Below, piece by piece: positions 3,524-63,641 of a DNA stretch of 64,000 nt. Position 1 is the first letter of the stretch. Each line of letters starts with the position of its first letter. The notes under the pieces are model-generated. The model was not told the DNA's origin. It was given only the letters and a program-made list of their open reading frames with translations, and made no database searches. The stretch lies in the IMG/VR virus record IMGVR_UViG_3300007640_000036, positions 1 to 64,000 of that record, one strand, 5' to 3'. Made by a program: the position numbers and the translations under genes. This DNA is from a virus.

Positions 3524-3532
3524 GGAAATTAA

Positions 3533-6366: not shown

Positions 6367-6432
6367 TAATCAATTAATCTAAACCGATTTTTAGACACAC
6401 CATAATTGCGTCTTTGCAACGCCTAATAATCG

Positions 6433-16414: not shown

Positions 16415-17059
16415 ATGAAGTTAATTACCGAAGAAATATCAAACGCAGAATATATCGTAGAAGAAAAAAATGGTAAAAGAAATTATTCCATTAAAGGTAT
16501 ATTCATGCAATCAGACGTTAAGAATAGGAATGGAAGAATCTATCCTAAAGAAATCTTACAAAAAGAAGTTGTAAGATACAATAGAGAGTTCATCAATAAA
16601 AGCAGAGCATTCGGCGAACTTGGTCATCCTGATGGCCCGACAGTAAATTTAGAAAGAGTTTCGCATATGATTAAGGCTTTGTATCCAGAAGGCGCAAATT
16701 TTATAGGTGAAGCACGAGTTTTAGATACCCCATATGGAAAAATAGTGAAAAGTTTAATTGACGAGGGTGCAAAATTAGGTGTTTCAAGTAGAGGAATGGG
16801 TACACTTGCAAATGTAGGTGGTGCCAATGTAGTTAAAGACGATTTTTACCTTGCGACCGCGGCTGATATAGTCGCAGACCCAAGTGCTCCAGACGCTTTC
16901 GTAGAAGGCATTATGGAAGGCAAAGAGTGGGTTTGGAATAATGGGATTTTGAAAGAGCAAGAAGTAAACGAATTAAAGTTACAAGTAGAAAGTAAAGAGA
17001 GAATGGCAAGAGCAGAAAAGAATGCTCAAGTATTCGAATCTTTTCTTAAAAAACTGTAA
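16415..17059 (+). CDS. gp21: Prohead core protease gp21
   Basis: A 214-residue serine protease (T4 gp21 is 212) of the herpesvirus-protease-like family. The catalytic His is H71 in GELGHPDG and the nucleophile lies in GVSSRG (S124/S125). DVKNRNGRIYPKEIL near residue 35 is another family hallmark. It is packed in the prohead core, then activated to cleave scaffold, capsid and internal proteins after (I/L)-x-E. Its presence matters for the proteins from 51 kb onward, whose N-termini fit this cleavage rule. It is followed by gp22 and gp23, as in T4. Confidence 0.95.
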   Translation: MKLITEEISNAEYIVEEKNGKRNYSIKGIFMQSDVKNRNGRIYPKEILQKEVVRYNREFINKSRAFGELGHPDGPTVNLERVSHMIKALYPEGANFIGEARVLDTPYGKIVKSLIDEGAKLGVSSRGMGTLANVGGANVVKDDFYLATAADIVADPSAPDAFVEGIMEGKEWVWNNGILKEQEVNELKLQVESKERMARAEKNAQVFESFLKKL

Positions 17060-18518: not shown

Positions 18519-19895
18519 ATGTTTTTATCTGAATCAATGCAAAACAAGTGGCAGCCCGTTTTAGACCATCCTGATCTTCCTGAGGTCAAAGATAGTTATA
18601 AAAGAGCCGTTACTTCAATGATATTAGAGAACCAAGAAAAGTCGCTTAAAGAAGACGCTGCTTTCTTATCAGAAGCTGCGCCAACTAACGCAACAGGTTC
18701 TTCAATACAAAACTGGAATCCTATTTTAATTAGCTTAGTAAGAAGAGCAATGCCTAACCTTATCGCATACGATATCGCTGGTGTTCAACCTATGTCAGGC
18801 CCAACTGGTCTGATCTTCGCAATGAGAAGCAGATATGCCTCTCAAAGTGGTGGTGAAGCTCTTTTTGACGAAGCTGATACAGACTTTAGTGGTAGAAATG
18901 CTGCTGGATCATCTGTAAATGCTAAAACAGGCCCAGCACAAACTGGTGAAAACCCAGCTGTTCTTAATGACTCAATCGGTACTTCTACTGGTTACACAAC
19001 TGGTACTGGTATGACTACTGACTATGCTGAAGCACTAGGTGATGCTTCCACTAACGCATTTGCTGAAATGGCATTCTCAATTGAGAAGTCAACGGTAACT
19101 GCGAAAAGCAGAGCATTAAAGGCTGAGTACACTATGGAATTAGCACAGGACCTTAAAGCAATTCACGGCTTAGACGCTGAAACTGAATTGTCTAACATAT
19201 TATCTGCTGAAATCTTAGCTGAGATCAACAGAGAAGTAGTTAGAACAGTTTATAGAACTGCTGAAGTAGGTGCTGCTGATAATGACAACTCACACGCTGC
19301 AATTAACACAACAACTGCTGGTATATTTGACCTTGACACAGACTCTAATGGTAGATGGTCTGTTGAAAGATTCAAAGGTCTTATGTTCCAACTAGAGAGA
19401 GATGCAAACACAATCGCTCAGAGAACCAGAAGAGGAAAAGGTAACATGATTATCTGTTCTTCAGATGTTGCCTCTGCATTACAAATGGCGGGTGTTTTGG
19501 ATTACACTCCTGCATTAAACAACAACTTAAACATTGACGATACTGGTAATACTTTTGCTGGTGTATTAAATGGTAAGTACAAAGTTTACATTGACCCATA
19601 TGCTGCTAACATGGCAAGCAATGCGTCACCTACTAAACAGTACTACGTTGTTGGTTACAAAGGAACTTCTCCATACGACGCTGGTTTATTCTATTGTCCG
19701 TATGTACCTCTACAAATGGTTAGAGCAGTAGGTCAGGATAACTTCCAACCGAAAATCGGTTTCAAAACTAGATACGGTATGGTTGCTAATCCATTTGCTG
19801 GTGCTTCTGCGTCAGGAAATATTACTGCTGACGGTGTTGGTGCAATCAACGCTAACAGATACTACAGACGTGTTCAAGTTACGAACATCATGTAA
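18519..19895 (+). CDS. gp23: Major capsid protein gp23
   Basis: A 458-residue major capsid protein with a HK97-type fold (T4 gp23 is 521). The N-terminal 52 residues are a delta-domain propeptide ending in FLSE, followed by AAPTN, which fits gp21 cleavage after E52. Conserved stretches include NWNPILISLVRRAMPNLIAYDI, GVQPMSGPTGLIFAMRSRY, AEYTMELAQDLKAIHGLDAE and RTRRGKGNMIICSSDVASAL, each read in segments. It ends with YRRVQVTNIM. A strong GGAGAG ribosome binding site precedes it and an intrinsic terminator follows, fitting very high late expression. Confidence 0.97.
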   Translation: MFLSESMQNKWQPVLDHPDLPEVKDSYKRAVTSMILENQEKSLKEDAAFLSEAAPTNATGSSIQNWNPILISLVRRAMPNLIAYDIAGVQPMSGPTGLIFAMRSRYASQSGGEALFDEADTDFSGRNAAGSSVNAKTGPAQTGENPAVLNDSIGTSTGYTTGTGMTTDYAEALGDASTNAFAEMAFSIEKSTVTAKSRALKAEYTMELAQDLKAIHGLDAETELSNILSAEILAEINREVVRTVYRTAEVGAADNDNSHAAINTTTAGIFDLDTDSNGRWSVERFKGLMFQLERDANTIAQRTRRGKGNMIICSSDVASALQMAGVLDYTPALNNNLNIDDTGNTFAGVLNGKYKVYIDPYAANMASNASPTKQYYVVGYKGTSPYDAGLFYCPYVPLQMVRAVGQDNFQPKIGFKTRYGMVANPFAGASASGNITADGVGAINANRYYRRVQVTNIM

Positions 19896-36608: not shown

Positions 36609-36764
36609 ATGAATTTCAAGTGGGATCTAACAAAGTTTATTAAAGAGGCAAGAGCAAAAAAATCTGCAACTGCTATTTTAAGAAAAAGATCAAAAGATTC
36701 AATTGCTAGACCAAAAGCAACTAAAAATATCACATCAAAAGATTCTCGTTTACAAGGTATATAG
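36609..36764 (+). CDS. Small basic protein with capsid-targeting-like start
   Basis: A 51-residue protein with an excellent AAAGGAGGG ribosome binding site and a late promoter upstream. The N-terminal 13 residues (MNFKWDLTKFIKE) end in F-I-K-E followed by A, close to FIAE-A in the T4 capsid-targeting sequence and matching the gp21 (I/L)-x-E rule. Cleavage would leave 38 residues that are very basic (ARAKKSATAILRKRSKDSI and on). T4 internal head proteins are likewise small, basic and processed. No family is recognised; the internal protein idea is inference. Confidence 0.6.
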   Translation: MNFKWDLTKFIKEARAKKSATAILRKRSKDSIARPKATKNITSKDSRLQGI

Positions 36765-45830: not shown

Positions 45831-46107
45831 ATGGAAAGAATTAAAAAGATGTATGATTAATCCTGATGGTCAAGTCTTTCAATGTTGTTATCTAAAAGAA
45901 GATTTTCCAACAAATCATTTTAGAACTGATTGGGCAAATGATCCAGTAATAAGTAAATACAATTTTGATGAAAATAACTTAAAGAATCATACGTTGAAAA
46001 ACATATTAAATAATGAATGGTTTACTAAAATTTTGCCAGATAGTTGGAAGAATCCTGATACAGCACCTGTTGCTTGTCAGATCAATTGTAAGGTTAATGA
46101 CGCTTGA
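45811..46107 (+). CDS. Stand-alone SPASM-like iron-sulphur domain
   Basis: A 98-residue protein with CKWKELKRCMINPDGQVFQC followed by a second C, matching the start of a SPASM domain (C, then C-x-NPDG-x-V-x-CC), and two late cysteines (ACQINC). Normally this domain is fused to the C-terminus of a radical SAM enzyme. Here it is a separate frame (+1) overlapping the radical SAM gene by 20 bases, with an AGAGAGG ribosome binding site. It could be a split enzyme, a frameshift product, or a recent break in one gene. Confidence 0.75.
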   Translation: MSKIICKWKELKRCMINPDGQVFQCCYLKEDFPTNHFRTDWANDPVISKYNFDENNLKNHTLKNILNNEWFTKILPDSWKNPDTAPVACQINCKVNDA

Positions 46108-50905: not shown

Positions 50906-50913
50906 TATAAATA
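50906..50913 (+). promoter_or_regulatory. T4-type late promoter upstream of the late accessory region
   Basis: A TATAAATA octamer overlapping the end of the 412-residue gene. About 50 bases later a host-type promoter follows. The region may be expressed both early and late. Confidence 0.55.
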
Positions 50914-50958: not shown

Positions 50959-50987
50959 TTGACAAAGGCGTAATTTTTTGATATAAT
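50959..50987 (+). promoter_or_regulatory. Consensus host-type promoter before the 51 kb operon
   Basis: Perfect TTGACA (50959-50964), 17-base spacer and perfect TATAAT (50982-50987), with CGC before the -35. A GGGAGAAAA ribosome binding site follows before the ATG at 51006. Confidence 0.8.
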
Positions 50988-51005: not shown

Positions 51006-52229
51006 ATGTATAGTTTTAAACAATATCTTAATGAGGCAAAAAATACTCATTTAGAACATTTAGAAGACGAAATTATTAATAACGGTTACCAAGGTGGCCT
51101 TAACGCAGTAGAATTTCTTAAATCATTAAGAAATATGCTAGTAGGTTCATCACGTAGAAAATTAAACGTATCCGTTAAATGGGATGGTGCACCAGCAGTA
51201 TTCTGTGGTATCAATCCTGAAAACGGCAAATTCTTTGTTGGATCAAAATCAGTATTCAACGTAACTCCTAAAATCAATTACACACAAGCAGATATAAGAA
51301 GAAATCACTCTGGTGGTTTAGTAGATAAATTATCAATCTGTTTAAAAGAATTACCTAAACTTGGTATACGAGGTGTTGTACAAGGTGACTTGTTATTTAC
51401 ATCAGGAGATATTAAGTCGGTATCTATACGAGGTGAAGATGCTATCGCATTTACACCAAACACTATAACATATGCTGTTCCAGAAAATACTGACCTTGCT
51501 AAAAGAATTAAAAGAGCTAAGTTAGGCATTATCTTTCACACTACTTACAATGGCCGAAAGATGTCTAACCTAAAAGCAAGCTTTGGCGTCAATGTAAATC
51601 GTTTTACAAAGACGCCAGCAGTATTCTTTGATGACGCAAGTTACAAAGACTCATCTGGTGTTGCTACATTTACAACTGCTGAAAGTGATCAGTACGATAA
51701 TATGTTAAGAATGGCAATGGGATCAATTTCAAAAGGTAAAGTTATTTTAGATTTGTTAAAAAGACAAACAAATATGTTATCAGTTGGTGCAAGATTAAAG
51801 ATTTTCTTCAATACAAAAATAAGAGAAGGTCAAACTATTAGTAATGTAAAAGGATTACAATCAGATTTTAGAAAGTACTATGCTTCAGTTTTAGATGATG
51901 AGATGTCAAGTAAAAAAACAGAAGCTGCAAAAAGTAAATACAAAACAATAAGAGATGATGGTTTAAAATTTATTGATAGATATGATAATGAAATATATTT
52001 TGCAATTGCAAGTTATGTAACTTTACAAAAAGTTAAAAATTATCTTGTAAGTAAAATGAATCAAATTAAATCAATAGGAACTTTTTTACAAAAAGGTAAT
52101 GGATTTGAAGTAACAAATCCAGAAGGTTATGTTGCTGTAGATAGAATGGGCAACGCCGTTAAATTAGTAGATAGATTAGAGTTTAGTACAGCAAACTTTA
52201 CATTAGCAAAGAATTGGATTAAAGGATAA
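51006..52229 (+). CDS. Ligase-like nucleotidyltransferase candidate with capsid-targeting-like start
   Basis: A 407-residue protein. Residues 58-61 are KWDG (VSVKWDGAPAVFCG), matching the lysine motif I (KxDG) of DNA/RNA ligases and capping enzymes. VVQGDLLF (about 124-131) could be motif III, and EGYVAVDRMGNAVKLV (E373-G374, K386) fits motifs IV and V. The N-terminal ten residues (MYSFKQYLNE) end in L-N-E followed by A, fitting the capsid-targeting/gp21 cleavage pattern. A family of such unknowns is common in marine T4-like phages (I believe DUF6267). Ligase activity is inference. Confidence 0.65.
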   Translation: MYSFKQYLNEAKNTHLEHLEDEIINNGYQGGLNAVEFLKSLRNMLVGSSRRKLNVSVKWDGAPAVFCGINPENGKFFVGSKSVFNVTPKINYTQADIRRNHSGGLVDKLSICLKELPKLGIRGVVQGDLLFTSGDIKSVSIRGEDAIAFTPNTITYAVPENTDLAKRIKRAKLGIIFHTTYNGRKMSNLKASFGVNVNRFTKTPAVFFDDASYKDSSGVATFTTAESDQYDNMLRMAMGSISKGKVILDLLKRQTNMLSVGARLKIFFNTKIREGQTISNVKGLQSDFRKYYASVLDDEMSSKKTEAAKSKYKTIRDDGLKFIDRYDNEIYFAIASYVTLQKVKNYLVSKMNQIKSIGTFLQKGNGFEVTNPEGYVAVDRMGNAVKLVDRLEFSTANFTLAKNWIKG

Positions 52230-53584
52230 TGGCAAATTTTAGAAAAGACACACAAGAATTTGGACCTAGAGGCCACGATAAAACGGTCTTTGAAGTACCA
52301 ATGATAGCAACAAATGACGGTAATGTTGTAACACAAACAAATCCATTTCCTGTTACAATATCAAGTATCAGTCAATCAAGCTCAGCAGAAACTAATACAG
52401 ACGCTTTTGGTAGACAAAGAATATCATCACCACTAACACTATTTGATTCCTCACATAGATTTTCTGATAATGATTTATGGAATGAAGATATTACAGGTGA
52501 CGCTTCATCAACCTTTCAAATAAATGAGGGTCTAGTAGATTTAACAGTTGGCGATAATGCTAATGATGAAATTATTAGAGAAACAAAAAAAGTAATGACT
52601 TATCAACCTGGTAAATCATTGTTAATTTTAAATTCTTTTGTATTTAATGCTGCTAAAACTGGATTAAGACAAAGAATAGGATATTTTGGAACAGACAATG
52701 GTATCTATTTAGAACAAGATGGTACAGATGTTTATATAGTAGAAAGAAGTAAAGTATCAGGTTCAGTTGTAGAAAGTAAAATTGCTCAAGCAGATTGGAA
52801 TGTAGATAAATTAGATGGCACAGGTACAACAGGCTATACTTTAGATTTAACAAAAGCACAAATTCAATATATAGATTTAGAATGGTTAGGTATAGGAACC
52901 GTAAGAGTAGGTTTTGTTATTAATGGTAGATTTGTAGTTGCTCACGCTTTTCATCACGCAAATTTAGTAACAGGAACATATATTACTACAGCTTCTTTAC
53001 CTTTAAGAATAGAAATTAAACAACAGACAGAATTGGGTGACAGCACCACAGCAACACTAAAACAAGTTTGTTCTAGTGTTATGAGTGAAGGTGGTTATCA
53101 ATTAAGAGGTTTACAACAAGCAGTTGGTACAGTAATTACTTCTCCTTATGAATTAACTACTGCTGGTACTTTTTATCCTGTTGTTTCTATACGATTAAAG
53201 TCAACAAGATTAGACGCAGCTGCTATTCTTACTGCTTTATCTATTTTAGGAACAGGAAATGGTATTTTTTATAATTGGCAAGTCGCAGCTGGAGGAACAG
53301 TTACAACAAGTTGGACTTCAGCTGGCACTAATTCATCTGTTGAATATTCAATTTCAGGAACAGCTTATACACTAGGTACAGGTAGAATATTAGCTAGTGG
53401 TTTTATGGCTTCTAATAATCAATCTAGTGCAGCTACTAATATTCTTAAAGAAGCGTTATTTAAATTTCAATTAGAAAGAAATACATTTACGGGTGTAGCA
53501 GAACCTATAACTCTTTTAATGTCTAGTGGTACTGATACGCAAGATGTGTATGCTTCTATGGATTGGGAAGAAATTAGTAGATAA
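52229..53584 (+). CDS. Virion-type structural protein (unknown)
   Basis: A 451-residue protein with a beta-rich pattern (TVRVGFVINGRFVVAHAFHH, PLRIEIKQQTELGDSTTATL). The N-terminus includes FGRQRISSPLTLFDSSHRF. The style is that of large fibre- or capsid-surface proteins of marine phages. It starts one base within the preceding stop (TAATG) and ends the same way into the kinase gene, so it belongs to the operon of the capsid-targeted-type proteins although it lacks that leader. Exact structural role unknown. Confidence 0.6.
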   Translation: MANFRKDTQEFGPRGHDKTVFEVPMIATNDGNVVTQTNPFPVTISSISQSSSAETNTDAFGRQRISSPLTLFDSSHRFSDNDLWNEDITGDASSTFQINEGLVDLTVGDNANDEIIRETKKVMTYQPGKSLLILNSFVFNAAKTGLRQRIGYFGTDNGIYLEQDGTDVYIVERSKVSGSVVESKIAQADWNVDKLDGTGTTGYTLDLTKAQIQYIDLEWLGIGTVRVGFVINGRFVVAHAFHHANLVTGTYITTASLPLRIEIKQQTELGDSTTATLKQVCSSVMSEGGYQLRGLQQAVGTVITSPYELTTAGTFYPVVSIRLKSTRLDAAAILTALSILGTGNGIFYNWQVAAGGTVTTSWTSAGTNSSVEYSISGTAYTLGTGRILASGFMASNNQSSAATNILKEALFKFQLERNTFTGVAEPITLLMSSGTDTQDVYASMDWEEISR

Positions 53585-54171
53585 TGAAAAGTTTTAGAGA
53601 TTTTATATTTGAACAATTAGGTAGAATGAGAATTATTATGTTAGGTGGACCTGGTTCAGGTAAATCAACCTATACAGAATACTTAATTAAACACTTTGAT
53701 ATTACACATATCTATCCAGGCGGTATGTTAAGAAAAGAAATTGAAAAAGGTTCAGAAATAGGACAGATTGCAAAAGATATAGTATCAAAAGGTGAGTTTG
53801 TTCCTAATCAAATAGTATTAGATTTAATTAGTAAAAAAGTTGAAGAAAGTCCTAAAGGTTATGTACTTGATGGATGGCCAAGATATATGCAACAAGTTGA
53901 AGATATGGAAAAAGCAGAAATAGGTTATGACTATGCAGTATTTTTAGATGTAAGTACCGAAGAAGTAATGAGAAGATTACTTGCAAGAGGTAGAGCAGAT
54001 GATACGAAAGAGATTATAGGTAATAGAATAGAATTATATAAAAAAGAAACAGGTCCTGTAATAGAATATTTAAGAAAGAAACCAGGATTTTTAGAAATAA
54101 AAGCAGAGGGTGGTACACCTGAAGATACTGCTAACGAAATTATAAGAAGAATAGAAAATGAAAGTAAATAG
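53584..54171 (+). CDS. Adenylate kinase-like enzyme with N-terminal leader
   Basis: A 195-residue kinase. The P-loop is GGPGSGKS (residues 21-28), the AMP-binding part is GGMLRKEIEKG, the DGWPR motif is residues 96-100, and a LID-side RGRADDT follows. Bacterial adenylate kinases begin with MRIILLGAPG; here the equivalent MRIIMLGGPG starts at residue 15, so the first 14 residues are an extra leader. The leader reads MKSFRDFIFE followed by Q, fitting capsid targeting and gp21 (I-x-E) cleavage. Trimming would leave an almost standard adenylate kinase, perhaps active in the newly infected cell. Confidence 0.85.
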   Translation: MKSFRDFIFEQLGRMRIIMLGGPGSGKSTYTEYLIKHFDITHIYPGGMLRKEIEKGSEIGQIAKDIVSKGEFVPNQIVLDLISKKVEESPKGYVLDGWPRYMQQVEDMEKAEIGYDYAVFLDVSTEEVMRRLLARGRADDTKEIIGNRIELYKKETGPVIEYLRKKPGFLEIKAEGGTPEDTANEIIRRIENESK

Positions 54172-54847
54172 TTTTATACAACATTTAGCAGAGGGTGTTT
54201 ACGACCCAGGAATATTTAAAGCATTTTTTCTTGCTGGTGGTCCTGGTTCAGGTAAAACATTTGTTACTCAAAGTACATTTTCAGGTACAGGATTAAAAGT
54301 TGTAAATTCTGATACATCATTTGAAAGAAATTTAAAACAAGCAAACTTATCTTTAAGTATGCCAGATGAAGAAACATATTTTAGAAACATTTTACGAAAT
54401 GCAGCCAAAAGAACTGCTATCTCACAGTTAAATAAATATGTAGAAGGAAGACTTGGTTTAGTAGTTGATAGCACAGGAAGAGATTATGATATGATTGCCA
54501 GACAACACAGTATGCTAAAGCAAATGGGTTATGATTGTTATATGGTATTTGTAAATACAACGTTAGATGTAGCGTTAGCAAGAAACGCTAGACGTGAAAG
54601 AACTATTCCTGAATATATTACAAAGTCAAGTTGGGAAGGTGTGCAAAATAACATTGGTAAATTTCAAAGACTATTTGGTTTAAATAATTTTTTAGTTGTA
54701 GATAACAATAAGTCTGATTTAGAACTTGTTACACTCACAATGAATAGAGTTGGTAAAATGGTAAGAAGATTTATGAGAACACCTGTACAAAATTATATTG
54801 CAAAACAATGGATGAAAAAAGAATTAGAGGCACGTAAAAGAATATGA
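54158..54847 (+). CDS. P-loop kinase (zeta-toxin/AAA-like) with capsid-targeting-like start
   Basis: A 229-residue protein with P-loop GGPGSGKT (K33), and acidic/hydrophobic strands VVDSTGRDYDMIARQ and YDCYMVFVNTTLDVALARN, typical of zeta-toxin-like or polynucleotide-kinase-like phosphotransferases. The start MKVNSFIQHLAE followed by G fits the (I/L)-x-E cleavage rule. Target unknown: a nucleotide, RNA or protein. It overlaps both neighbours by 4 or more bases in the same operon. Confidence 0.7.
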   Translation: MKVNSFIQHLAEGVYDPGIFKAFFLAGGPGSGKTFVTQSTFSGTGLKVVNSDTSFERNLKQANLSLSMPDEETYFRNILRNAAKRTAISQLNKYVEGRLGLVVDSTGRDYDMIARQHSMLKQMGYDCYMVFVNTTLDVALARNARRERTIPEYITKSSWEGVQNNIGKFQRLFGLNNFLVVDNNKSDLELVTLTMNRVGKMVRRFMRTPVQNYIAKQWMKKELEARKRI

Positions 54848-57633
54848 GATTTAAAGATTTTTTAAAAGAGTCTATAATTGACATACCAAGACAAACGTAT
54901 GCAAAAGGTGTATTTGATAAAGCAGATACTCCTAATCCAGTATTAAAACCATCAGTAAAAAAATTAGTATTAGATGGTATAAAGACATTTGAGAAATTTG
55001 GTAAAGTAGTTAAGTATACCTTAATTGGTTCAATACTTACAAAACAATATAGAGCTGATGCAGACCTTGACATTAATATCTTATTTAATATACCTGGTTC
55101 AAAAGAAGAACAAGAAAAGGTACATGATGAGATTAGAGAATATCAAGGACAGATAAATGGTAAAAATATACCAGGCACACAGCATCCTATCAACTACTTT
55201 TCCATCATAGATCCTGTAACATTTAATAAGGCAAGGGACATGGCTGATGGTACTTTTGATATCGACTCTAACAAGTGGATCAAAAAACCAGAACCTGGCA
55301 CCTTTGAACCTGAAAAATACGTTACGGATTTTCAGAAGCGTGTTTCTGAAATAGATGTTGTTAAAGGTGAACTTATACGAGATATGATTGATTATGAGGA
55401 ACTAAAAGACTTAACAGGTAACGACATAAAAAACTTGTCAAGTTTAGTTTCTAAAAAGTTAGACGAAATTAAATCTTCTATTAACACTCTAATTGATATT
55501 GGTGACAAAACTATTGCAGACCGAAAGGATGCTTTTAGTACAGATATGTCACCAGACGAAATCAGAAAGTTTGGTGTAAAGAACCGACTTCCCAAAAATG
55601 TGATTTATAAAATGTTAGAAAAGTATCATTATCTCAAATTTTTCAAAAAGTTGAAAGAGATTATGGAAGACGGTAAAATATCACCAGACGAACTGAAATC
55701 ATTATCAAAAATAAAAGAGGCCAAGGGTAGATCAATTGCATTTACCTTTGGCCGATTTAATCCACCTACAATAGGACACGAAAAACTTATTAACAAAGTG
55801 GCACAACAAAGAACAGATGATTACAGAATTTATTTAAGTAAATCTGAAGACACATCTAAAAACCCATTGAATGCTAGAGTTAAGTTAGCAACAATGAAAC
55901 AAATGTTTCCTAGACATAGCAGAAACATACTACTTAATCCATCAAACATGATATTGGATATTGTAACTGATTTACATAAAAGAGGTTACTCAAACATAAC
56001 GATGGTTGCAGGTAGTGATAGAGTAAGAGAATTTGATACTATCTTAAAAAAATATAACGGCGTTAAGAGCCGTCATGGTCTATATGACTTTGATAGTATA
56101 TCTGTAGCTTCAGCAGGAGAAAGAGATCCTGACGCTGAAGGTGCTACGGGAATGAGTGCTAGTAAAATGAGAGCGGCTGCAAAATCAAAAGACTTTGCAA
56201 GTTTCAAAAAAGGACTGCCGTCTGGTTTTGCTAACTCAAAAAATGCACAAGACTTATTTAGAAATGTAAGAAAAGGAATGATGTTAGCGGCTTCGTTTGA
56301 CGCTGATAGTGCATTTAGATTTAAACCATTTATAACTGCCTCAACAAAAGAGGAGTTAGATAAAATGACATTAAGGGACAAATATATTTCAGAGCATTTA
56401 TATGATGTAGGAGATATAGTTGACGATATGGAGAATAATGTAACTGGTGTCATTGTAAGAAGAGGAACAAACTATGTTACCTTGGAAGACGAGGAGATGA
56501 GCCTACACAAATGTTGGTTATATAATATTATGGAAACTCCTGTCTATTCAATTAAGTTGGAGAAACGATCAATGAACTTAAAAGAGAAAAGAAAATTAGC
56601 GTATGATAAAGAAACAGATCAACCTAAAAAATACGTTGCAGGATTATCAGACAAAGAGAAAAAGGCACATGATAGACACCTAGAAAAACAAGGTAAAAAA
56701 TCAGATAGTGACAAGTCTGCTTATAAACAATCACCTGCTGACAAAGTAGCAAAAACAAAACCTAGTAAACATACAAAACGTTTCAAACAAATGTATGGAG
56801 AATTGAAGACAAAATCAGAAAAAGAACCTCAACATAGAGGTAATGAATTTAATACAGATGGTATACCAGAAGCCTATGAAATAGGACATGATTGGGCAAA
56901 ATATACATCTTCAATAACACCAGGCGAAAAACACTACAATCCTAAGTATCAAGGCGGTTCTTATAGTCCAAGTAAACATAGTGATAATTTAATTAATGTT
57001 AACGCAAGTAAGGATATAAGCATGACAGATAATAAAAAAGTTGAGCTAAAAGATATAGAAGAATGGGCAAGTAAAGAAGAAACTATTAATAAATATAAGG
57101 AAAGATATGGGGAAGAGTGGCAATCTAAAATTGAAGAAACATACAATAAAATGTTCAATAAAGTGATTGACACCAACACAAATATGCAAGAAGGAAGAAT
57201 GAAGGATATCGCAATAGACCTTAAATCTAAGGACGAAGGCGGATTAGATCCAGAGGAATTTCAAAGAAAGTACAACAAATCTAAAGCAGAAATGAGAAAA
57301 GATTTAGGTGCTACTGAAGGCTTTAAGTTAACGTTTAAAGACTTTATGAAAGAAGAAGCAGACGAGTGGGGAATTTTCCCATCACAAATTACAGAAGCAG
57401 AACATCAAGGTAAAAAAGTTACTTTGAACAAACCTGTTAGAGGTGGTTCTAAAAAGTTTTATGTTTACACAAAAGGACCTAACGACAACATAGTCAAAGT
57501 ATCATTTGGTGATCCTAATATGGAAATTAAAAGAGATAATCCTGCAAGAAGAAGAAGCTTCAGAGCAAGACATAACTGTGATAATCCAGGACCTAAATGG
57601 AAAGCAAGATATTGGAGTTGCAAAAAATGGTAA
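54844..57633 (+). CDS. Multidomain protein with two nucleotidyltransferase domains and putative cleavage sites
   Basis: A 929-residue protein. Residues 1-9 (MRFKDFLKE) form a capsid-targeting-like leader. Residues about 58-80 (LIGSILTKQYRADADLDINI) match the GS...DxD motif of Pol-beta-type nucleotidyltransferases. Residues 303-312 (GRFNPPTIGH) and 438-443 (SASKMR) match the HxGH and ISSTxxR-type motifs of NMN/cytidylyltransferases. A Lys-rich linker follows. A second leader-like TFKDFMKE lies at 830-837 and ITE at 849-851, before a basic Cys-containing module (RRSFRARHNCDNPGP, RYWSCKKW). gp21 could release the parts. Enzymatic substrates are unknown. Confidence 0.75.
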   Translation: MRFKDFLKESIIDIPRQTYAKGVFDKADTPNPVLKPSVKKLVLDGIKTFEKFGKVVKYTLIGSILTKQYRADADLDINILFNIPGSKEEQEKVHDEIREYQGQINGKNIPGTQHPINYFSIIDPVTFNKARDMADGTFDIDSNKWIKKPEPGTFEPEKYVTDFQKRVSEIDVVKGELIRDMIDYEELKDLTGNDIKNLSSLVSKKLDEIKSSINTLIDIGDKTIADRKDAFSTDMSPDEIRKFGVKNRLPKNVIYKMLEKYHYLKFFKKLKEIMEDGKISPDELKSLSKIKEAKGRSIAFTFGRFNPPTIGHEKLINKVAQQRTDDYRIYLSKSEDTSKNPLNARVKLATMKQMFPRHSRNILLNPSNMILDIVTDLHKRGYSNITMVAGSDRVREFDTILKKYNGVKSRHGLYDFDSISVASAGERDPDAEGATGMSASKMRAAAKSKDFASFKKGLPSGFANSKNAQDLFRNVRKGMMLAASFDADSAFRFKPFITASTKEELDKMTLRDKYISEHLYDVGDIVDDMENNVTGVIVRRGTNYVTLEDEEMSLHKCWLYNIMETPVYSIKLEKRSMNLKEKRKLAYDKETDQPKKYVAGLSDKEKKAHDRHLEKQGKKSDSDKSAYKQSPADKVAKTKPSKHTKRFKQMYGELKTKSEKEPQHRGNEFNTDGIPEAYEIGHDWAKYTSSITPGEKHYNPKYQGGSYSPSKHSDNLINVNASKDISMTDNKKVELKDIEEWASKEETINKYKERYGEEWQSKIEETYNKMFNKVIDTNTNMQEGRMKDIAIDLKSKDEGGLDPEEFQRKYNKSKAEMRKDLGATEGFKLTFKDFMKEEADEWGIFPSQITEAEHQGKKVTLNKPVRGGSKKFYVYTKGPNDNIVKVSFGDPNMEIKRDNPARRRSFRARHNCDNPGPKWKARYWSCKKW

Positions 57634-58580
57634 CAAGATATAGAAGTGGATGGGATTACGAATCTCTAAATGAGTTTACAACTGTTTACGTTGCTAGATG
57701 GAGAGGTAAAGACGGTAAAAGATATGCGTCACCTTTTAAAACAAAAGACTCTGCTGAAAAGAGAGCAAAAGAATTAAGAACACAAGGTAATTCTGAAGTA
57801 TCCGTTACACAAGATACGTTAAAGGGAAATATTAAGTGGGCAAAAGATAACGGACCTGATATAAAAGGAATGCAAAAAGAAGAAAAGTTTGAGTGTCCTA
57901 AATGTAAAGGTAAAGGTTGTGACCATTGTGGTGGCAAAGGTTATCATATGAAAGAAAATGTTGGTGATTTTTATCAAAGTAAAATGACACCTCAACAAAT
58001 TCAGAATATAAAGAAGACTTGGCAAGGTAAGAAAGCTTCAGACGTTACACCTGCTGTTAAGGCAATGATTAAACGATTAGATATACCTACACAGTTGGCA
58101 ATTAGACAGGCAAACATACCTCATATTTCAAAATTAGTAGAGGACGCTTCTAAAGACGCTGAGAATATGGCGAAATTGAGAACACGTCAAATGTCATTAC
58201 AAACTAAATTAAAAGATTTAGATCCAGGTGAACCTAAAGACAAAACACCTATGGCTATAACTAAAAATGATATAGAGACCATACAAATGAAAATGGATCA
58301 GTTAAGAAGTAAAATGAAAAAAGAACAAGTACACCCAGCAAAATCTCTTATTGAAGCGATTACTGCTGTAAAAAACAAAGCAGAAAAAACAGGTATGCCT
58401 TATTCTATCTTAAAGAAAGTTTACGATAGAGGTATGGCTGCATGGAAAGGTGGTCATAGACCAGGCACTACACCTCAACAATGGGCTATGGCAAGAGTTA
58501 ACAGTTTCGTAACTAAATCATCTGGTACTTGGGGTAAAGCAGATAAAGATTTAGCAGCGAAAGTAAGGAGCAAAAAGTAA
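57627..58580 (+). CDS. Zinc-ribbon protein with C-terminal DUF5824-like domain
   Basis: A 317-residue protein. Residues 90-101 hold four cysteines in the pattern C-x2-C-x4-C-x2-C (CPKCKGKGCDHCGGKGYH), like a DnaJ-type zinc finger. The C-terminal MPYSILKKVYDRGMAAWKGG followed by HRPGTTPQQWAMARVNSFVT is a domain I associate with marine phage proteins (DUF5824). I chose ATG 57627, with GGAG at about 57615, over an upstream in-frame ATG at 57597. A leader-like SLNE occurs at residues 13-16. Function unknown; a virion or head-linked role is suggested by its neighbours. Confidence 0.65.
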   Translation: MVTRYRSGWDYESLNEFTTVYVARWRGKDGKRYASPFKTKDSAEKRAKELRTQGNSEVSVTQDTLKGNIKWAKDNGPDIKGMQKEEKFECPKCKGKGCDHCGGKGYHMKENVGDFYQSKMTPQQIQNIKKTWQGKKASDVTPAVKAMIKRLDIPTQLAIRQANIPHISKLVEDASKDAENMAKLRTRQMSLQTKLKDLDPGEPKDKTPMAITKNDIETIQMKMDQLRSKMKKEQVHPAKSLIEAITAVKNKAEKTGMPYSILKKVYDRGMAAWKGGHRPGTTPQQWAMARVNSFVTKSSGTWGKADKDLAAKVRSKK

Positions 58581-59212
58581 TGAACAAAAAATATTTTGAT
58601 ACAAGAAAAGATAGCTTAGAGGATAAGATTAATACAATTGCTTCTGAACAAGCTGCTATTTCAAAACCAGTATCAGACGTAAAATTATCAGTAGAAAAGA
58701 AATACTTTGAAAGTAAAAAAGGATCACTAGAAGATGTAGCAAGTAAACTTGTTGAAAGTAAATTAGATCCAGTAAACAAAGACGCTGTTAAGAAAAAGTT
58801 TGATGATAGAAAAGATAAAGACATTGACAACGATGGCGATACAGATTCATCTGATAAGTATCTACATAAAAGAAGAAAAGCAATTTCAAAAGCAACAAGT
58901 GAAGAAGTTGAACCTTGTGGATTAACTGCTGAAGCGTGTTGGGATTCTCATAAACAACAAGGTTACAAAATGAAAGGTGGCAAACGTGTCCCTAATTGTG
59001 TACCTAAAAATGAAGCAGTAAATCAGGACGATCATGGTGAGAAAATCAACCAAGATAAAAAAGACGCTGCTATGAAGAAGACAGATCAAAAGAAACCATT
59101 TGACAAGTTAAGACAAGAAACTAAACTAGTTAGACTTGGGAACAATGGTAAGACAGATACAGGTCAAAAAGCTGCAGTTATAGACCTTGAACCGTCAGCA
59201 AAACCTATCTAG
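58580..59212 (+). CDS. Hypothetical protein with repeat and EF-hand-like loop
   Basis: A 210-residue charged protein. Two similar segments, NKKYFDTRKDSLEDKI and EKKYFESKKGSLEDVA, form an internal repeat. DKDIDNDGDTDSSDKYLHKR is a calcium-binding dockerin/EF-hand-like DxDxDG loop, seen in other marine phage virion proteins. A Cys-containing segment (CGLTAEACWDSHKQQGY) follows. It overlaps the previous stop (TAATG). Function unknown; the calcium loop could stabilise a virion protein. Confidence 0.6.
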   Translation: MNKKYFDTRKDSLEDKINTIASEQAAISKPVSDVKLSVEKKYFESKKGSLEDVASKLVESKLDPVNKDAVKKKFDDRKDKDIDNDGDTDSSDKYLHKRRKAISKATSEEVEPCGLTAEACWDSHKQQGYKMKGGKRVPNCVPKNEAVNQDDHGEKINQDKKDAAMKKTDQKKPFDKLRQETKLVRLGNNGKTDTGQKAAVIDLEPSAKPI

Positions 59213-59229
59213 TTGCGACATTTTGTCAA

Positions 59230-59261
59230 TTGACAAAAGCACTATTATATGATAGTATAAT
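59230..59261 (+). promoter_or_regulatory. Possible host-type promoter before the HAD gene
   Basis: Perfect TTGACA (59230-59235) and TATAAT (59256-59261), but the 20-base spacer is long, so strength is doubtful. TAAGGA follows as ribosome binding site. Confidence 0.45.
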
Positions 59262-59278
59262 AGTATAAGGAAAACACT

Positions 59279-59773
59279 ATGACTAAACCTATCATATATT
59301 GCGATATGGATGGAGTACTTGCAGATTTTAAAACAGGTGCTCAAAAAACAACTGGTATGTCCATTAACAAATGGATGAATATACCATCTTCAAAAGAAAA
59401 ATGGGGATTGATTAAATCTAAAAAAGACTTTTGGTCAACTCTTCCTTGGATGCCTGGTGGCAAACAACTCTGGTCTTACTTATCAAAATTTGATCCACAT
59501 ATACTATCAGCATACGTAGAAGAGTCGTTTGATCCTAACTGTATTCCTGGCAAAACTGAATGGCTAAGAAGAAATGCTGGAATGTCAAATCGTTCAAAAA
59601 TCAATCTAGTACGAAGAAAAGAAAAGAAACTCTTTGCCAAAAGAGGTAATCCTGCTATCTTAATTGATGACTATGAAAAAAACATAAGAGAATTTACACA
59701 AGCAGGTGGTACTGGTATTCATCACACAAACACATCAAATACTATATCTAAACTTAAAAAACTAGGTTTTTAA
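59279..59773 (+). CDS. HAD-family phosphatase (5'(3')-deoxyribonucleotidase-like)
   Basis: A 164-residue HAD enzyme with motif I DMDGVLADF at residues 9-17, the HILSAYVEES strand in the place of motif II, a Lys/Arg-rich region (KINLVRRKEKKLF) and motif III/IV ILIDDYEKNIREF. It resembles phage and bacterial 5'(3')-nucleotidases that dephosphorylate nucleoside monophosphates. It may balance nucleotide pools during infection, together with the adenylate kinase-like enzyme upstream. The next gene follows after a late promoter. Confidence 0.85.
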   Translation: MTKPIIYCDMDGVLADFKTGAQKTTGMSINKWMNIPSSKEKWGLIKSKKDFWSTLPWMPGGKQLWSYLSKFDPHILSAYVEESFDPNCIPGKTEWLRRNAGMSNRSKINLVRRKEKKLFAKRGNPAILIDDYEKNIREFTQAGGTGIHHTNTSNTISKLKKLGF

Positions 59774-59776
59774 TCT

Positions 59777-59784
59777 TATAAATA
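59777..59784 (+). promoter_or_regulatory. T4-type late promoter for virion-type genes
   Basis: A TATAAATA octamer just after the HAD gene, with predicted start near 59790 and an AAGGAGAG ribosome binding site before the ATG at 59824. Confidence 0.6.
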
Positions 59785-59823
59785 GTACTGTTATATAACA
59801 ATTACTAATTTAAGGAGAGATAT

Positions 59824-60381
59824 ATGTCTTTATGGGGAAACGATATAAAGCCTAAAAATCTTACAGACGAAGAAAAAAAAGAAGTCTATGCAACCGCTCA
59901 AGGTTGGGTAAGAGAAGCAGGCTCAGTATTATCAGGTAATGATAATCCAAATGCAGATCCAGAAGTATTAGTAGCAATCGGCGGATTAGCTACAAATATG
60001 GGTTCAGCAAATATTACTGAAATAGAATTTGTAACAACATCAATCGGTGCAGGTGCTGGTGGAAACATTGACGTTAGAGTAAGATTTAACGAAAGAGTTG
60101 ACATTACAGGAACTCCACAAGTAACAGTAACTAACGACCAAACAGGTAGTGGTACTGATGCTACATTTACAGCAGATTATAATTCTGGTACAGGATCAAA
60201 CGAAATTGTATTCAGAGCAACTTATGCAGCTGCAGATGGTGGTATTGCTGAGAATGATGTATTATCAATTGGATCTAATGCAGTGGCACTTAACGGTGGT
60301 ACTATTAAAGATGCTGGTACAACAACAAACTCTACAATTACAAACGCTGCTCAAACAGGTACATTAACTGTTTCAGCATAA
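59824..60381 (+). CDS. Virion structural protein with Ig-like/adhesion-type domain
   Basis: A 185-residue protein. The N-terminus SLWGNDIKPKNLTDEEKKEV and the following YATAQGWVREAGS are typical of a small structural protein in marine T4-like phages. The remainder is a beta-sandwich-like domain (NIDVRVRFNERVDITGTPQV, EIVFRATYAAADGGIAENDV), resembling bacterial Ig-like or SwmB-type repeats. It may decorate the head or tail surface. A late promoter and a strong terminator bracket it as its own unit. Confidence 0.7.
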   Translation: MSLWGNDIKPKNLTDEEKKEVYATAQGWVREAGSVLSGNDNPNADPEVLVAIGGLATNMGSANITEIEFVTTSIGAGAGGNIDVRVRFNERVDITGTPQVTVTNDQTGSGTDATFTADYNSGTGSNEIVFRATYAAADGGIAENDVLSIGSNAVALNGGTIKDAGTTTNSTITNAAQTGTLTVSA

Positions 60382-60391
60382 TAACAAAATC

Positions 60392-60420
60392 ATATAAGGG
60401 TGCTTAAAGTGCCCTTATAT
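60392..60420 (+). terminator. Intrinsic terminator-like hairpin
   Basis: Nine perfect pairs ATATAAGGG (60392-60400)/CCCTTATAT (60412-60420), extended inwards by weaker pairs. It ends the transcript of the gene at 59824. The following T content is modest. Confidence 0.7.
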
Positions 60421-60492
60421 ATACTATATGAACAAATTGATCTAGGCAAATACCTAGAGTAGCATTCCCGAAAGGGTTAACAGGAGAAAAAA

Positions 60493-60951
60493 ATGGCAGA
60501 CAAAAAAATAACGGCATTGACCGATTTAGGTGACTCGTTGGCATCAGCTGACTTGTTTCACGTAGTGGATGACCCAGCAGGGACACCAATCAATAAAAAA
60601 ATATCAGCAGAAAATGTGTTTAACAATATACCTTCTTGGTTAGGTTTATCACAAGATTCACAATTAATAACTGCTGACGCTTCATCACAGGTTGCAAACG
60701 TAACTTCAGCAATAACTGAAATCAACGCTACTTCAGCAACTGGTGCAATATCATTAGCAGATGGTTCTGATGGACAAATTAAGATTTTTATTAATACATC
60801 AACAAGTGGTACAAATGACGTAGTAATTCAACCAACTAACTTGCGTGGGGGTACTACTATTACTTTGAATGCTCAAGGTGAAACAGTTGTATGTATATTT
60901 AAAAATTCAAACTGGAATGTAATCGGCGGACATGGTTTCGCAATTGCGTAA
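60493..60951 (+). CDS. Small virion structural protein (fibre-like)
   Basis: A 152-residue protein with a fibre-style N-terminus (KITALTDLGDSLASADLFHV, ending in VDDPAGTP) that many phage tail-fibre-like proteins share. A beta-rich C-terminal part (GETVVCIFKNSNWNVIGGHG) follows. A GGAGAAAA ribosome binding site precedes it. It probably belongs to the virion surface; exact location unknown. Confidence 0.6.
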   Translation: MADKKITALTDLGDSLASADLFHVVDDPAGTPINKKISAENVFNNIPSWLGLSQDSQLITADASSQVANVTSAITEINATSATGAISLADGSDGQIKIFINTSTSGTNDVVIQPTNLRGGTTITLNAQGETVVCIFKNSNWNVIGGHGFAIA

Positions 60952-60968
60952 TATATTAGGAGATTATT

Positions 60969-61283
60969 ATGGGAATAACAACACAAACGTTAATGAAAGA
61001 GAAATTTGCTCTTCAAAAAACGTTTAATGAATTGAACAATAGAATAAAGACTATTGAAAAAGATTTATCAGTAATGAAAGCAAATATGAGTGCTGTTCAT
61101 GGTGCCTTACAACAAGTTGAAAAACTTATACAATATGATGACAACTATGGTAAAAAAGAAGCAGAGATAATTCATAGTAGAGAAAAAAAAGTGCCACCAC
61201 TTGAATCAGGCCCAGTTGAAAAACCTTCTTTAGATATAAAAACTAAGGAAGAACCTCAACAATTAAATGAGGGTGATAAATGA
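60969..61283 (+). CDS. Coiled-coil hypothetical protein
   Basis: A 104-residue protein. The first 60 residues form a continuous heptad-like helix (FALQKTFNELNNRIKTIEKD, then VMKANMSAVHGALQQVEKLI), and the rest is a charged, Pro-containing tail. It has an AGGAG ribosome binding site. It overlaps the next small gene by 4 bases. No specific family; oligomerisation or a chaperone-like role is possible. Confidence 0.55.
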   Translation: MGITTQTLMKEKFALQKTFNELNNRIKTIEKDLSVMKANMSAVHGALQQVEKLIQYDDNYGKKEAEIIHSREKKVPPLESGPVEKPSLDIKTKEEPQQLNEGDK

Positions 61284-61447
61284 AAGAAGATAGGGATAGC
61301 TTTATAGAGGATCTTGCTGACAATACACCAAATGAAGCTCAGTTTGATAAGTTAAAAGAAGCTGAAGTACATGACGCTGAAGAAGACCTGGTAGCAGGTA
61401 AAACTTATAAGAAATTAAAAGACGAAGTAAAACGAGGAGAAAAATGA
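61280..61447 (+). CDS. Small acidic hypothetical protein
   Basis: A 55-residue frame joined to both neighbours by ATGA overlaps (61280-61283 and 61444-61447), which supports it as a real gene although it is short. It is highly charged (DRDSFIEDLADNTPNEAQF, EVHDAEEDLVAGKTYKKLK) and probably helical. The residues before the last stop include GAGGAGA, the ribosome binding site of the next gene. Function unknown. Confidence 0.55.
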   Translation: MKEDRDSFIEDLADNTPNEAQFDKLKEAEVHDAEEDLVAGKTYKKLKDEVKRGEK

Positions 61448-61875
61448 AAACATTTAAACAACACATAAAAGAAGGCGGAACTATGGGCGTTGGAACACCT
61501 CATCAATCTTCAGTAGAAGATGGATCAATGGGTGCTCACAATATACATGAACCTGCAATCTTACAAAGAGTGAATGCTTTTGTTGGATCTATTGCTGATA
61601 AAGAGTATATACAGCCTGAGGCTGCTCTATCTCAATTAGAAACTAGATTAAGAACAATTGGTGTTCAGTTAAAAGACTCAATAACAATTAATGATAAAAA
61701 AGGTAACTTTGAAAGTGCTTTAGTATTTAATGGTGGTCGTTTTGGTAAAGATACCGACGGCTCTGACATAAATGATGATGGAATTAGTCATAAAGTTGGC
61801 AAAGAGTTAAAACTAAAAGGTAGATACGAAACACTAGAGAACGGCGCTGTTAAAGTTTATGCAGAGCTTGGCTAA
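61444..61875 (+). CDS. Hypothetical protein with capsid-targeting-like start
   Basis: A 143-residue protein. The start MKTFKQHIKE followed by G resembles the T4 leader MKTYQEFIAE in length and positions (MKT-aromatic, then I-x-E). The body has a helical part (EPAILQRVNAFVGSIADKEY) and beta strands with a GGRFGKDTDGSDINDDGIS acidic loop. No enzyme motif is seen. The gp21 rule would remove the first ten residues. Confidence 0.6.
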   Translation: MKTFKQHIKEGGTMGVGTPHQSSVEDGSMGAHNIHEPAILQRVNAFVGSIADKEYIQPEAALSQLETRLRTIGVQLKDSITINDKKGNFESALVFNGGRFGKDTDGSDINDDGISHKVGKELKLKGRYETLENGAVKVYAELG

Positions 61876-62237
61876 TGTTTGATAAGATAACAAAGAAGAA
61901 TTGGTTATTTTACGCCATAAAAAACTACAATGTTCCTAATTTAGATAGTGAACAGGAGTTTTATGAAGATGTGAAAAGATTTAAGTATCTTAAACGTTTA
62001 TTTCGTAAATACAAAACCACAGGTGAACTGAAAACTAGATTAGTATTAAATCATATCATAGTATTGACAAATGTTTTTGGTAATGAGGCTGCGGCTACAT
62101 TATTATTATTTAAGATTGAAAGAGAGTATTGGTCTGTACTAAAAACTTTCTTACAATATTTAAATGTAGTAAGTGAAGACGAGTTGCCAAATGTGAAAGT
62201 AAATAAAACTTTGTTATCAAGTTTGGAGAAATTATAA
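61875..62237 (+). CDS. Helical hypothetical protein
   Basis: A 120-residue, mostly helical protein starting one base inside the previous stop (TAATG). Its pattern (NWLFYAIKNYNVPNLDSEQE, FKYLKRLFRKYKTTGELKTR, NVFGNEAAATLLLFKIERE) is one I associate with a conserved unknown in marine T4-like phages (from memory, uncertain). No function is known to me. It overlaps the next gene in the same way, so the block 61280-63641 is one tightly coupled unit. Confidence 0.55.
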   Translation: MFDKITKKNWLFYAIKNYNVPNLDSEQEFYEDVKRFKYLKRLFRKYKTTGELKTRLVLNHIIVLTNVFGNEAAATLLLFKIEREYWSVLKTFLQYLNVVSEDELPNVKVNKTLLSSLEKL

Positions 62238-62827
62238 TGGGAAGAGCAATAGATTTATTAATAACTTATAGAGTAATTAAAATGTTAGTTACTCCTTGGA
62301 AACAACATGACGCTTATAAGTTGGGTATAATTGATGACAATGGTAAAGTATTAAGAAAAGCTAAAACTTTGAAATCAGCAAAAGAAAAAGATTCTTATAC
62401 TATACTACACAGATTTGTATTCAATTTGAAAAGACTACTAGGGTTATTACCTGGTGGTAAATCAAAGTTTGCCTCATACGCAACTGCTTTGGCACTATTG
62501 TTAAAAGAGAATAAAGATATTAACGCTGTAGAATTAGAAAGAGGTTTATATAAACATCTTATTGAAAACGACTTGGTCGCTTATGATGATGATCTAAAAG
62601 AGTCTGTAGGTTTTGATTTTTTACCAGAAGGTAGATTTATAATGATTGACAGATTAGAAGATTTAAATGGCGAACAAACTGCTGATGTAGGTGATGTAGT
62701 ATATACAACTGAAAATCAGAAACCTTTTGATAATCTATTCGGCGTAAACCTATATCATGTTATAAATGAAGATACTAAAAAACAAATTATAGTATCAGAG
62801 GACAACATAGAGAGGGTAAAATTTTAA
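62237..62827 (+). CDS. Hypothetical protein, 196 residues
   Basis: A protein with a helical N-terminal half (IDLLITYRVIKMLVTPWKQH, FNLKRLLGLLPGGKSKFASY) and an acidic beta-type C-terminal half (GDVVYTTENQKPFDNLFGVN, QIIVSEDNIERVKF). Tight TAATG-type overlaps on both sides. The N-terminal hydrophobic region is not long enough for a sure membrane span. Function unknown. It might bind the neighbouring 120-residue protein, but that is only a guess from gene coupling. Confidence 0.55.
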   Translation: MGRAIDLLITYRVIKMLVTPWKQHDAYKLGIIDDNGKVLRKAKTLKSAKEKDSYTILHRFVFNLKRLLGLLPGGKSKFASYATALALLLKENKDINAVELERGLYKHLIENDLVAYDDDLKESVGFDFLPEGRFIMIDRLEDLNGEQTADVGDVVYTTENQKPFDNLFGVNLYHVINEDTKKQIIVSEDNIERVKF

Positions 62828-63429
62828 TGAAAACCTTTAAAGAAATAAGATCAATTATAAGAGAATTTTCTGATAGTCAAATAGACATGTTGGCAAGACA
62901 ATATGCAGGACTAAAAGATAAAACAATCTCAACAGATCAAGCAAATAAATTAAGAAAAATATTTGACAGAATACCTGATAGAGCGCTAGACGCTTTAAGA
63001 AGAAAAAAGATACCTTTTATATCTGGTATGGCATTATCACGTATGGTTAAAAAAGGTATGCCTGTAAAAGAAGACGCACCTGCTAATGCAGTAGGCAATG
63101 GATCAAATCTTGCAATGCCGCCAGCAGTAGAACCTGGTGTACACGTAAAGAAAAAGAAAAAAGATGTAACTAGCTTATTAAGACGTGAAGACTATGATAA
63201 AGTTGAACTAGAAAATTTAATTAATAAGATTGAGTCTAACCAAGACATAGAAGAAAATCAAATTAAACCTATAGTAAACAATATCAAATCAAAAAAAGAA
63301 AAAGGTACATATACTGAAGAATTTGCTATGACAGCATTTAGATATGTTGTAGATAGACAAATAAAATCTACAGTTTCAGAGGATTTTAGAAACAAAGTTG
63401 CTTCAAAATTACTATCAAAGTACGTATGA
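62827..63429 (+). CDS. Hypothetical protein with capsid-targeting-like start
   Basis: A 200-residue protein beginning MKTFKEIRSIIRE followed by F, again M-K-T-aromatic and I-R-E. After the leader come two helical segments (SQIDMLARQYAGLKDKTIST, DRALDALRRKKIPF), a flexible Pro/Gly stretch (APANAVGNGSNLAMPPAVEP) and a basic, helical C-terminal part. The middle stretch is a recurring feature of marine phage structural proteins. Function unknown; a packaged head protein is suggested by the leader. Confidence 0.6.
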   Translation: MKTFKEIRSIIREFSDSQIDMLARQYAGLKDKTISTDQANKLRKIFDRIPDRALDALRRKKIPFISGMALSRMVKKGMPVKEDAPANAVGNGSNLAMPPAVEPGVHVKKKKKDVTSLLRREDYDKVELENLINKIESNQDIEENQIKPIVNNIKSKKEKGTYTEEFAMTAFRYVVDRQIKSTVSEDFRNKVASKLLSKYV

Positions 63430-63641
63430 AAACTTATAAAGAATTAAGAGAGTATATGAGAGGGTTCGCTATAGGACCTGTTGACACATTAAAACCTATG
63501 GCATCCTTAGGCGGTTCTCAATCTTCTCCAGATAGAAGATACACAGCACAATTGCCTCAATTAGCTGCAACAGCAAAAGGGCCAGGGTTAGGAACAATTA
63601 AACCTATGGTCACAGCAAGTAAAAAGAAAGAGAAGAAATAA
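63426..63641 (+). CDS. Small basic protein with capsid-targeting-like start
   Basis: A 71-residue protein starting MKTYKELRE (the first four residues equal the T4 leader MKTY), followed by YMRGFAIGPVDTLKPMASLG and a basic tail (ASKKKEKK). L-R-E at 7-9 fits the gp21 rule. It overlaps the previous stop (ATGA). The small, basic character again recalls T4 internal head proteins. Function unknown. Confidence 0.55.
   Translation: MKTYKELREYMRGFAIGPVDTLKPMASLGGSQSSPDRRYTAQLPQLAATAKGPGLGTIKPMVTASKKKEKK

Follow-up and report, generated by a model that had tools for sequence, protein, structure and literature searches.

Leaders of the T4 internal-protein type on unrelated enzymes suggest a packaged enzyme cargo in a marine T4-like phage

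The stretch of DNA analysed here (the window) comprises 64,000 of the 64,504 bases of IMG/VR record IMGVR_UViG_3300007640_000036 and belongs to a T4-like phage akin to Pelagibacter phage HTVC008M (DUF6267 protein 53% identical). At 51006-63641 it carries a gene cassette in which unrelated enzymes share a short N-terminal leader. We propose, with a probability of roughly 0.83, that these N-termini, 8-16 residues long, correspond to the capsid-targeting propeptides known from T4 internal proteins, which would load the enzymes into the head for delivery with the DNA. A preliminary description of this DNA had proposed a common address label on unrelated enzymes. This is now supported by the statistics of the motif, by a cut site conserved where leader and body meet, by leaderless orthologues, by a T4 control and by the virion proteomes of related phages. 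A 165,693-base contig with 214 open reading frames (ORFs) includes a stretch that matches the entire window at 99.99% identity, and a megablast search of the cassette region against phages returned no match.

A common N-terminal label on unrelated proteins

In T4, the criterion for a capsid-targeting sequence is an N-terminal propeptide of about 10-19 amino acids (aa) with aromatic key residues at positions 4 and 7. We used a strict, T4-derived rule, ^M.{1,5}[FY]..[FYH][IL].E, with an aromatic residue at -6, an aromatic residue or histidine at -3, Ile or Leu at -2 and a closing Glu. Five of the 77 genes in the window match it (51006, 53584, 54158, 54844 and 61444) and the other 72 do not. Shuffled N-termini gave an expectation of 0.035 matches, with none of 5000 shuffles reaching five, and the rate at internal positions predicts 0.02 among the 77 genes. 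A T4-only form of the rule, without histidine, found 3 of 77 against 0.016 expected. On the 165,693-base contig the same five genes are the sole strict matches among all 214 ORFs, and the label is therefore confined to the cassette. As a control, we applied the rule to a T4 stretch of 67 genes, where it picked out IPII and IPIII only; in IPI, MKTFKEF forms the targeting part and ITE↓A lies at a distance from it (the arrow marks a predicted cut).

The leader search across marine T4-like genomes that the preliminary description had suggested was made on 80 related contigs (871 kb, 985 ORFs). Strict leaders begin 120 of the 985 proteins, against 0.9 expected from shuffles or 0.18 from the internal rate, and the motif is absent from replication proteins rather than equally common on them. 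The bodies behind these leaders form seven clusters that do not resemble one another (DUF6267, adenylate kinase, P-loop kinase, nucleotidyltransferase, a 143-aa family, a 95-aa family and a 495-aa protein), in line with the earlier statement that the tagged bodies are unrelated. At the fixed leader residues the relatives mostly use different synonymous codons; thus, constraint acts on the protein. One related contig (L066, 19031) encodes a 182-aa protein with two tandem leaders (MKRFKSYIIE...MKSFKQHIKE).

The motif is short and the genes are neighbours, as would suit N-termini that are alike by chance or through shared gene ancestry. However, five matches against 0.03 expected, seven body clusters without similarity and the synonymous codon variation leave this explanation a negligible probability, and we rejected it on the shuffles and the clusters.

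A protease site at the leader border and the prohead machinery

The site that closes the leader is conserved directly at the border to the body. All 31 distinct leaders of the P-loop kinase family close with [ILMVF]xE, and G(L/V/I)YD follows directly; yet they range in length from 8 to 14 aa and differ in sequence (MIPFILKE, MKSFEQILSE, MKTLKELKSFISE, MKKTLQEVRDYINE). The same site is kept in 28 of 28 distinct leaders of adenylate kinase orthologues and at the border in 19 of 21 of the nucleotidyltransferase family. Mutational data from T4 assign targeting to residues 4 and 7 and processing to residues 8 and 10 (PMC9026906), and the residues conserved in the marine leaders correspond to these four positions. 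Relatives that lack a leader begin at the same border. The leaderless DUF6267 protein of cyanophage S-SZBM1 starts M-AKNTHLEHLED, compared with YLNE↓AKNTHLEHLED, so that its start coincides with the predicted cut. In Aegir and HTVC111P, which are not T4-like, the C-terminal domain found in the large nucleotidyltransferase protein of the cassette starts MAKYQGR or MAKYKGR, compared with ITE↓AEHQGK, again at the predicted cut. These starts lend indirect support to cleavage, which is itself predicted.

The window encodes the machinery that such leaders would need; these genes, the promoter sequences and the leader genes located below lie on the + strand. The gp21 homologue reported earlier at 16415 is borne out as a gp21-type prohead protease (16415..17059; PF03420, 6e-35). 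It is followed by a gp22-type scaffold protein (17145..18479; PF25623, 1.5e-70), the presumed docking partner of the leaders, and by the major capsid protein (18519..19895), recognised by its gp23-like N-terminus and its place. The capsid protein has a predicted gp21 site, FLSE↓AAP, after residue 52, and an FLSE↓A-type site lies at the same position in the capsid proteins of HTVC008M, S-SZBM1, S-CREM2 and S-SCSM1. Late in infection, the aromatic residues of the leader, one helical turn apart (F/Y at -6, F/Y/H at -3), would dock the tagged proteins on the prohead scaffold core. gp21 would then cut after (I/L)-x-E, as in the major capsid protein, and leave mature enzymes inside the head; these would exit with the DNA and could act at once, before any phage gene expression.

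A T4-type late-promoter sequence, TATAAATA, lies 100 nucleotides (nt) upstream of the first leader gene (50906..50913), and a second copy lies inside the cassette region (59777..59784). The window holds 11 such sites, all on the + strand, all at gene gaps or ends and 21-100 nt before a gene start. Nine of the 11 are fully intergenic, with intergenic DNA making up about 4% (p ~1e-11), compared with 44 of 424 occurrences of other 8-mers of the same composition. Over the whole window the sequence is not over-represented; because only its placement and not its number is significant, we use it as supporting evidence alone. A sigma70-like promoter read from the sequence, TTGACA-17-TATAAT (50959..50987), also precedes 51006, and early or middle expression of this gene is therefore possible as well.

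This promoter, together with the classification of pelagimyophage adk as an auxiliary metabolic gene (PMC7029224), would suit a leader that is some other protein-interaction motif, binding for example the sliding clamp or factors of late transcription, on enzymes that serve as ordinary auxiliary metabolic genes in the infected cell. We hold this to be very improbable, since the motif is bound to N-termini and absent from replication proteins, the protease site at its end is conserved while the rest varies, and tagged proteins are present in virions. A motif of the sliding-clamp type was set aside on the N-terminal restriction and the conservation of the cut site.

Tagged enzymes in the virions of related phages

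The strongest evidence comes from cyanophage virions, in which proteins with such leaders have been detected and where the proteomes leave the presence of these enzymes unexplained. The S-CREM2 virion holds a SAM hydrolase, a kinase, a cytidylyltransferase, gp13, gp136 and a 'Cas9' protein (PMC10665884). The first three start with MKDFDSFLEE, MKRFDAFLTE and MKNFSSFLTE, and they are the three strict-leader proteins of this phage, all of them detected; gp13 starts with MKDLHSFLTE and gp136 with MQTFSMFFSE, whereas in the 'Cas9' protein RFASFMAE occupies residues 18-25. In S-SCSM1, the sole strict-leader gene of 282 encodes an NMNAT-like virion protein (MKSFLQFLKE); the detected set was taken here from the 'virion protein' notes in GenBank, which mark 48 genes where the paper names 45. 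The cytidylyltransferase detected in S-SZBM1 carries MRFRQFIIE. The S-SM1 virion holds cytidylyltransferase T4-GC190 (PMC3037559), which starts MKKFSAFLNE, and the kinase of S-CRM01, which has been cited among virion proteins (PMC10665884), starts MISFDQFLSE and is encoded amid a run of leader genes. The cytidylyltransferase/NMNAT-like family thus occurs with a leader in the virions of S-SM1, S-SZBM1, S-SCSM1 and S-CREM2.

Over S-CREM2, S-SCSM1 and S-SZBM1, five of the seven strict-leader proteins were detected (p=0.006). A wider rule gave 6 of 7 in S-CREM2 (p=0.002, or 7e-5 without the listed structural and lysis proteins). We regard the strict result as the fair one, because the wider rule was set after seeing the S-CREM2 data and a medium rule reaches 7 of 17 (p=0.06).

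These features of the wider and medium rules, the latter missing significance, weigh against the proposed packaging, and so do several other observations. The leader proteins S-SZBM1_191, S-SZBM1_192 and S-SCSM1_30 were not detected in virions, orthologues of the adenylate kinase and the P-loop kinase were not found in the three phages with tested proteomes, and the S-CREM2 authors warn that such virion enzymes may be contaminants (PMC10665884). Among DUF6267 proteins, 33 orthologues match the strict rule, while 14 of 24 distinct leaders lack [ILMVF]xE, a large clade keeps F4/F7 without the cut site, which it has lost (MFSFKGFxTKE/G), and the leader is absent from cyanophage forms. In the T4 leader, aspartate at position 10 stops cutting but not targeting (PMC9026906); the DUF6267 clade without a cut site could therefore still be packaged. 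The DUF6267 protein of S-SZBM1, leaderless there, was not detected in the virions of that phage.

Two further observations concern leader proteins of cyanophages. S-SZBM1_191, S-SZBM1_192 and S-SCSM1_30 are small proteins encoded beside terminase and structural genes and include one family common to both phages (SESVNISGDFNGNLY). In addition, a second short module (...LGL.SDGHG..., LNLKSDGHGGWYDSRGEFVAKTEGG, LNLKHIGYGRYADPSGNVTH) stands just after the leader of several functionally unrelated proteins, located in S-CREM2 (L089, 7704-10313) and at L100 g128, SSCSM1_91 and SSM1_190; the S-CREM2 'Cas9' protein has both leader and module.

If the tagged proteins were prohead-core or assembly factors that act or are destroyed during head maturation, nothing useful would be injected. 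T4 core proteins are likewise gp21 substrates (PMC9026906), and some small tagged proteins went undetected in virions. Nevertheless, we consider this unlikely, given that the bodies are enzymes with intact motifs and that mature virions of relatives contain tagged enzymes. Packaging of the tagged enzymes is thus a well-supported inference; for the adenylate kinase, the P-loop kinase and the DUF6267 protein, it is the leader that points to it. Since virions of related phages carry tagged enzymes, the DNA of these viruses is probably delivered along with enzymes that are ready for use.

The predicted cargo and its relation to known systems

The load would comprise the DUF6267 protein, an adenylate kinase, a zeta/PNK-like P-loop kinase, a fusion of nucleotidyltransferase and NadD/NadM-like domains, and small unknowns. 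The first leader, MYSFKQYLNE↓A (51006..51035), opens the 407-aa DUF6267 protein (51006..52229; PF19782, 5e-127; phrog_455). The body had been called ligase-like, of which the motif part stands: KWDG, in the form KWDGAPA, is invariant in the family and suggests a ligase-type nucleotidyltransferase. The label stays a motif-level guess, because neither fold nor profile searches gave anything usable (best Foldseek ligase match weak, with E 0.31 and probability 0.25; no match in a profile search for ligase). In S-PM2 (L117, 4992-6771), the frames annotated for DUF6267 and cytidylyltransferase are inconsistent, and the cytidylyltransferase is listed with a start within DUF6267-like sequence.

The next two bodies proved to be as first described. 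MKSFRDFIFE↓Q (53584..53613) precedes an adenylate kinase (53584..54171; PF00406, 8e-37) that is complete, with an ADK domain and an intact P-loop, GGPGSGKST. MKVNSFIQHLAE↓G (54158..54193), from the family in which every orthologue leader keeps the site, precedes a P-loop kinase of the zeta/PNK type (54158..54847; AAA_33, 1.5e-11; Zeta_toxin, 1e-9; 1gvn, 4e-5).

MRFKDFLKE↓S (54844..54870) heads a 929-aa protein (54844..57633) in which profile, fold and alignment evidence supports two nucleotidyltransferase domains. It combines a MNT/Pol-beta-type nucleotidyltransferase with invariant GS...DADLDI, a NadD/NadM-like adenylyltransferase, a weak DUF5824 match and a C-terminal basic domain. GRFNPPTIGH and GMSASKMR are invariant in the second domain and fit the GxFxPxxxGH and SxSxxR-type motifs; by its sequence motifs and modelled fold, this domain appears to be a Rossmann-fold NMN/NaMN adenylyltransferase of the NadD/NadM kind. 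The fold search matched 8aih/2qjo (NadD/NadM; E ~5e-5, probability 1.0) and 1no5 (probability 0.97), read at domain level only because the model has a mean predicted local distance difference test score (pLDDT) of 62. Ahead of the C-terminal domain lies an internal leader that the preliminary description had missed, (L)TFKDFMKE↓E (57331..57354), followed by a second site, ITE↓A (near 57396), where leaderless relatives start. In some relatives the domain has a gene to itself, in part with its own N-terminal leader (MKSLKRHILE, MKSLKQFIEE).

Also missed earlier was a probable long leader, MVTRYRSGWDYESLNE↓F(T) (57627..57674), on a DUF5824 ORF (57597-58580, listed start 57597, likely start 57627; DUF5824, 2e-18), whose relatives start MVTRYRTSWSEIQEQMNE↓FT, MSRYRTSWEQIREQVNE↓FT and MSKYKTTWTEIRNHLHE↓IQ. 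The protein at 58580-59212 contains two copies of KKYF-x2-(R/K)K-x-SLED, and its relatives start (K)KYFETKSGSLEE or KYLKTKEGSIED; it is possibly another, putative core-binding element. The fifth strict leader, MKTFKQHIKE↓G (61444..61473), stands on a 143-aa protein (61444-61875) with 11 relatives. All seven N-termini quoted in the preliminary description match the sequence exactly. Five of the six it listed as leaders fit the strict rule, while the sixth, MKTFKEIRSIIRE (62827..62865) on a 200-aa protein, fails it and is a plausible leader that resembles the long ones of P-loop kinase orthologues (MKTLKELKSFISE, MKNLKEIREFIKE). The seventh, MKTYKELRE (63426..63452) on a 71-aa ORF, is a weak candidate, and no relatives of this ORF were found. 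Outside the cassette, a candidate leader that fits the medium rule only, MNFKWDLTKFIKE↓A (LTKFIKE↓AR; 36609..36647), begins a 51-aa, very basic ORF (36609-36764) that resembles a small T4 internal protein and has a late-promoter sequence 89 nt upstream; S-CRM01 g126 carries the comparable KLTKYIKE.

Elsewhere in the window, at 45159-46107, a radical-SAM-like ORF (CNARCPQC) is followed by an overlapping small Cys-rich ORF, possibly as a split protein. Adhesin- or fibre-like ORFs at 1-6400 have 77-90% repeats common to each other and to the upstream region of the long contig. A PADLOC search returned weak, uninformative matches only.

By analogy with the T4 internal proteins, which block restriction enzymes (PMC12373910), the cargo would most likely act at entry, in the repair of nucleotides, NAD and RNA or in counter-defence. 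More broadly, we would give even odds that T4-like phages of Pelagibacter, Methylophilales and cyanobacteria carry a conserved virion-cargo cassette, with a modular leader on changing enzymes that are injected preformed for NAD, nucleotide and RNA repair and for disarming defence at entry. These enzymes would be NMNAT-like and other nucleotidyltransferases, adenylate and P-loop kinases, a SAM hydrolase, a Ser/Thr-type kinase and a Cas9-like nuclease. The leader supplies a likely packaging signal for enzymes that have turned up in cyanophage virions again and again and have been doubted there. For adk and the cytidylyltransferase/NMNAT-like genes, it makes a role on delivery at entry more likely than one in metabolism while the infection proceeds; if so, several genes at present classed as auxiliary metabolic would encode injected effectors. 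It would also allow the proteins packaged by abundant ocean phages to be read off their sequences, and natural leaders could be used as tags to load proteins into phage heads.

Head-held and delivered proteins are known from other phages, with a likeness at the level of their descriptions. The Dar and Ddr proteins of phage P1 are held in the head and delivered. The ejection proteins of the giant phage SPN3US are another such case and are reported to be cleaved by a prohead protease (PMC7411985). The leader in cyanophages S-CREM2, S-SZBM1, S-SCSM1, S-SM1 and S-CRM01 stands on detected virion enzymes, as it does on those of the marine cassette, and in four of these five the enzyme belongs to the same cytidylyltransferase/NMNAT-like family. 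As far as the available text of the accounts of these virion enzymes goes, no packaging signal is named, and one doubts true packaging (PMC10665884). The preliminary description knew of no description as a system. This holds for the marine enzyme cassette and for the leader on virion enzymes, of which a search of the open literature, with subscription papers and preprints outside it, found no account, but not for the general idea: a review has proposed the T4 leader as a possible general route for T4-like phages to package varied proteins (PMC9026906).

The closest likeness is to T4 IPI, IPII, IPIII and Alt, in leader length, in aromatic residues at T4 positions 4 and 7 and in the (I/L)-x-E cut. 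Further parallels are the encoded gp21 and gp22, the T4-type late-promoter sequence and the match of IPII and IPIII to the same rule. The T4 internal proteins are small and variable and inhibit restriction enzymes of the GmrSD type (PMC12373910), whereas the marine bodies are conserved enzymes in a syntenic cassette, one of them a fusion in which a second leader lies internally. In leader and proposed use the system is of the T4 internal-protein kind, and the conserved marine enzyme cassette is a new form of it.

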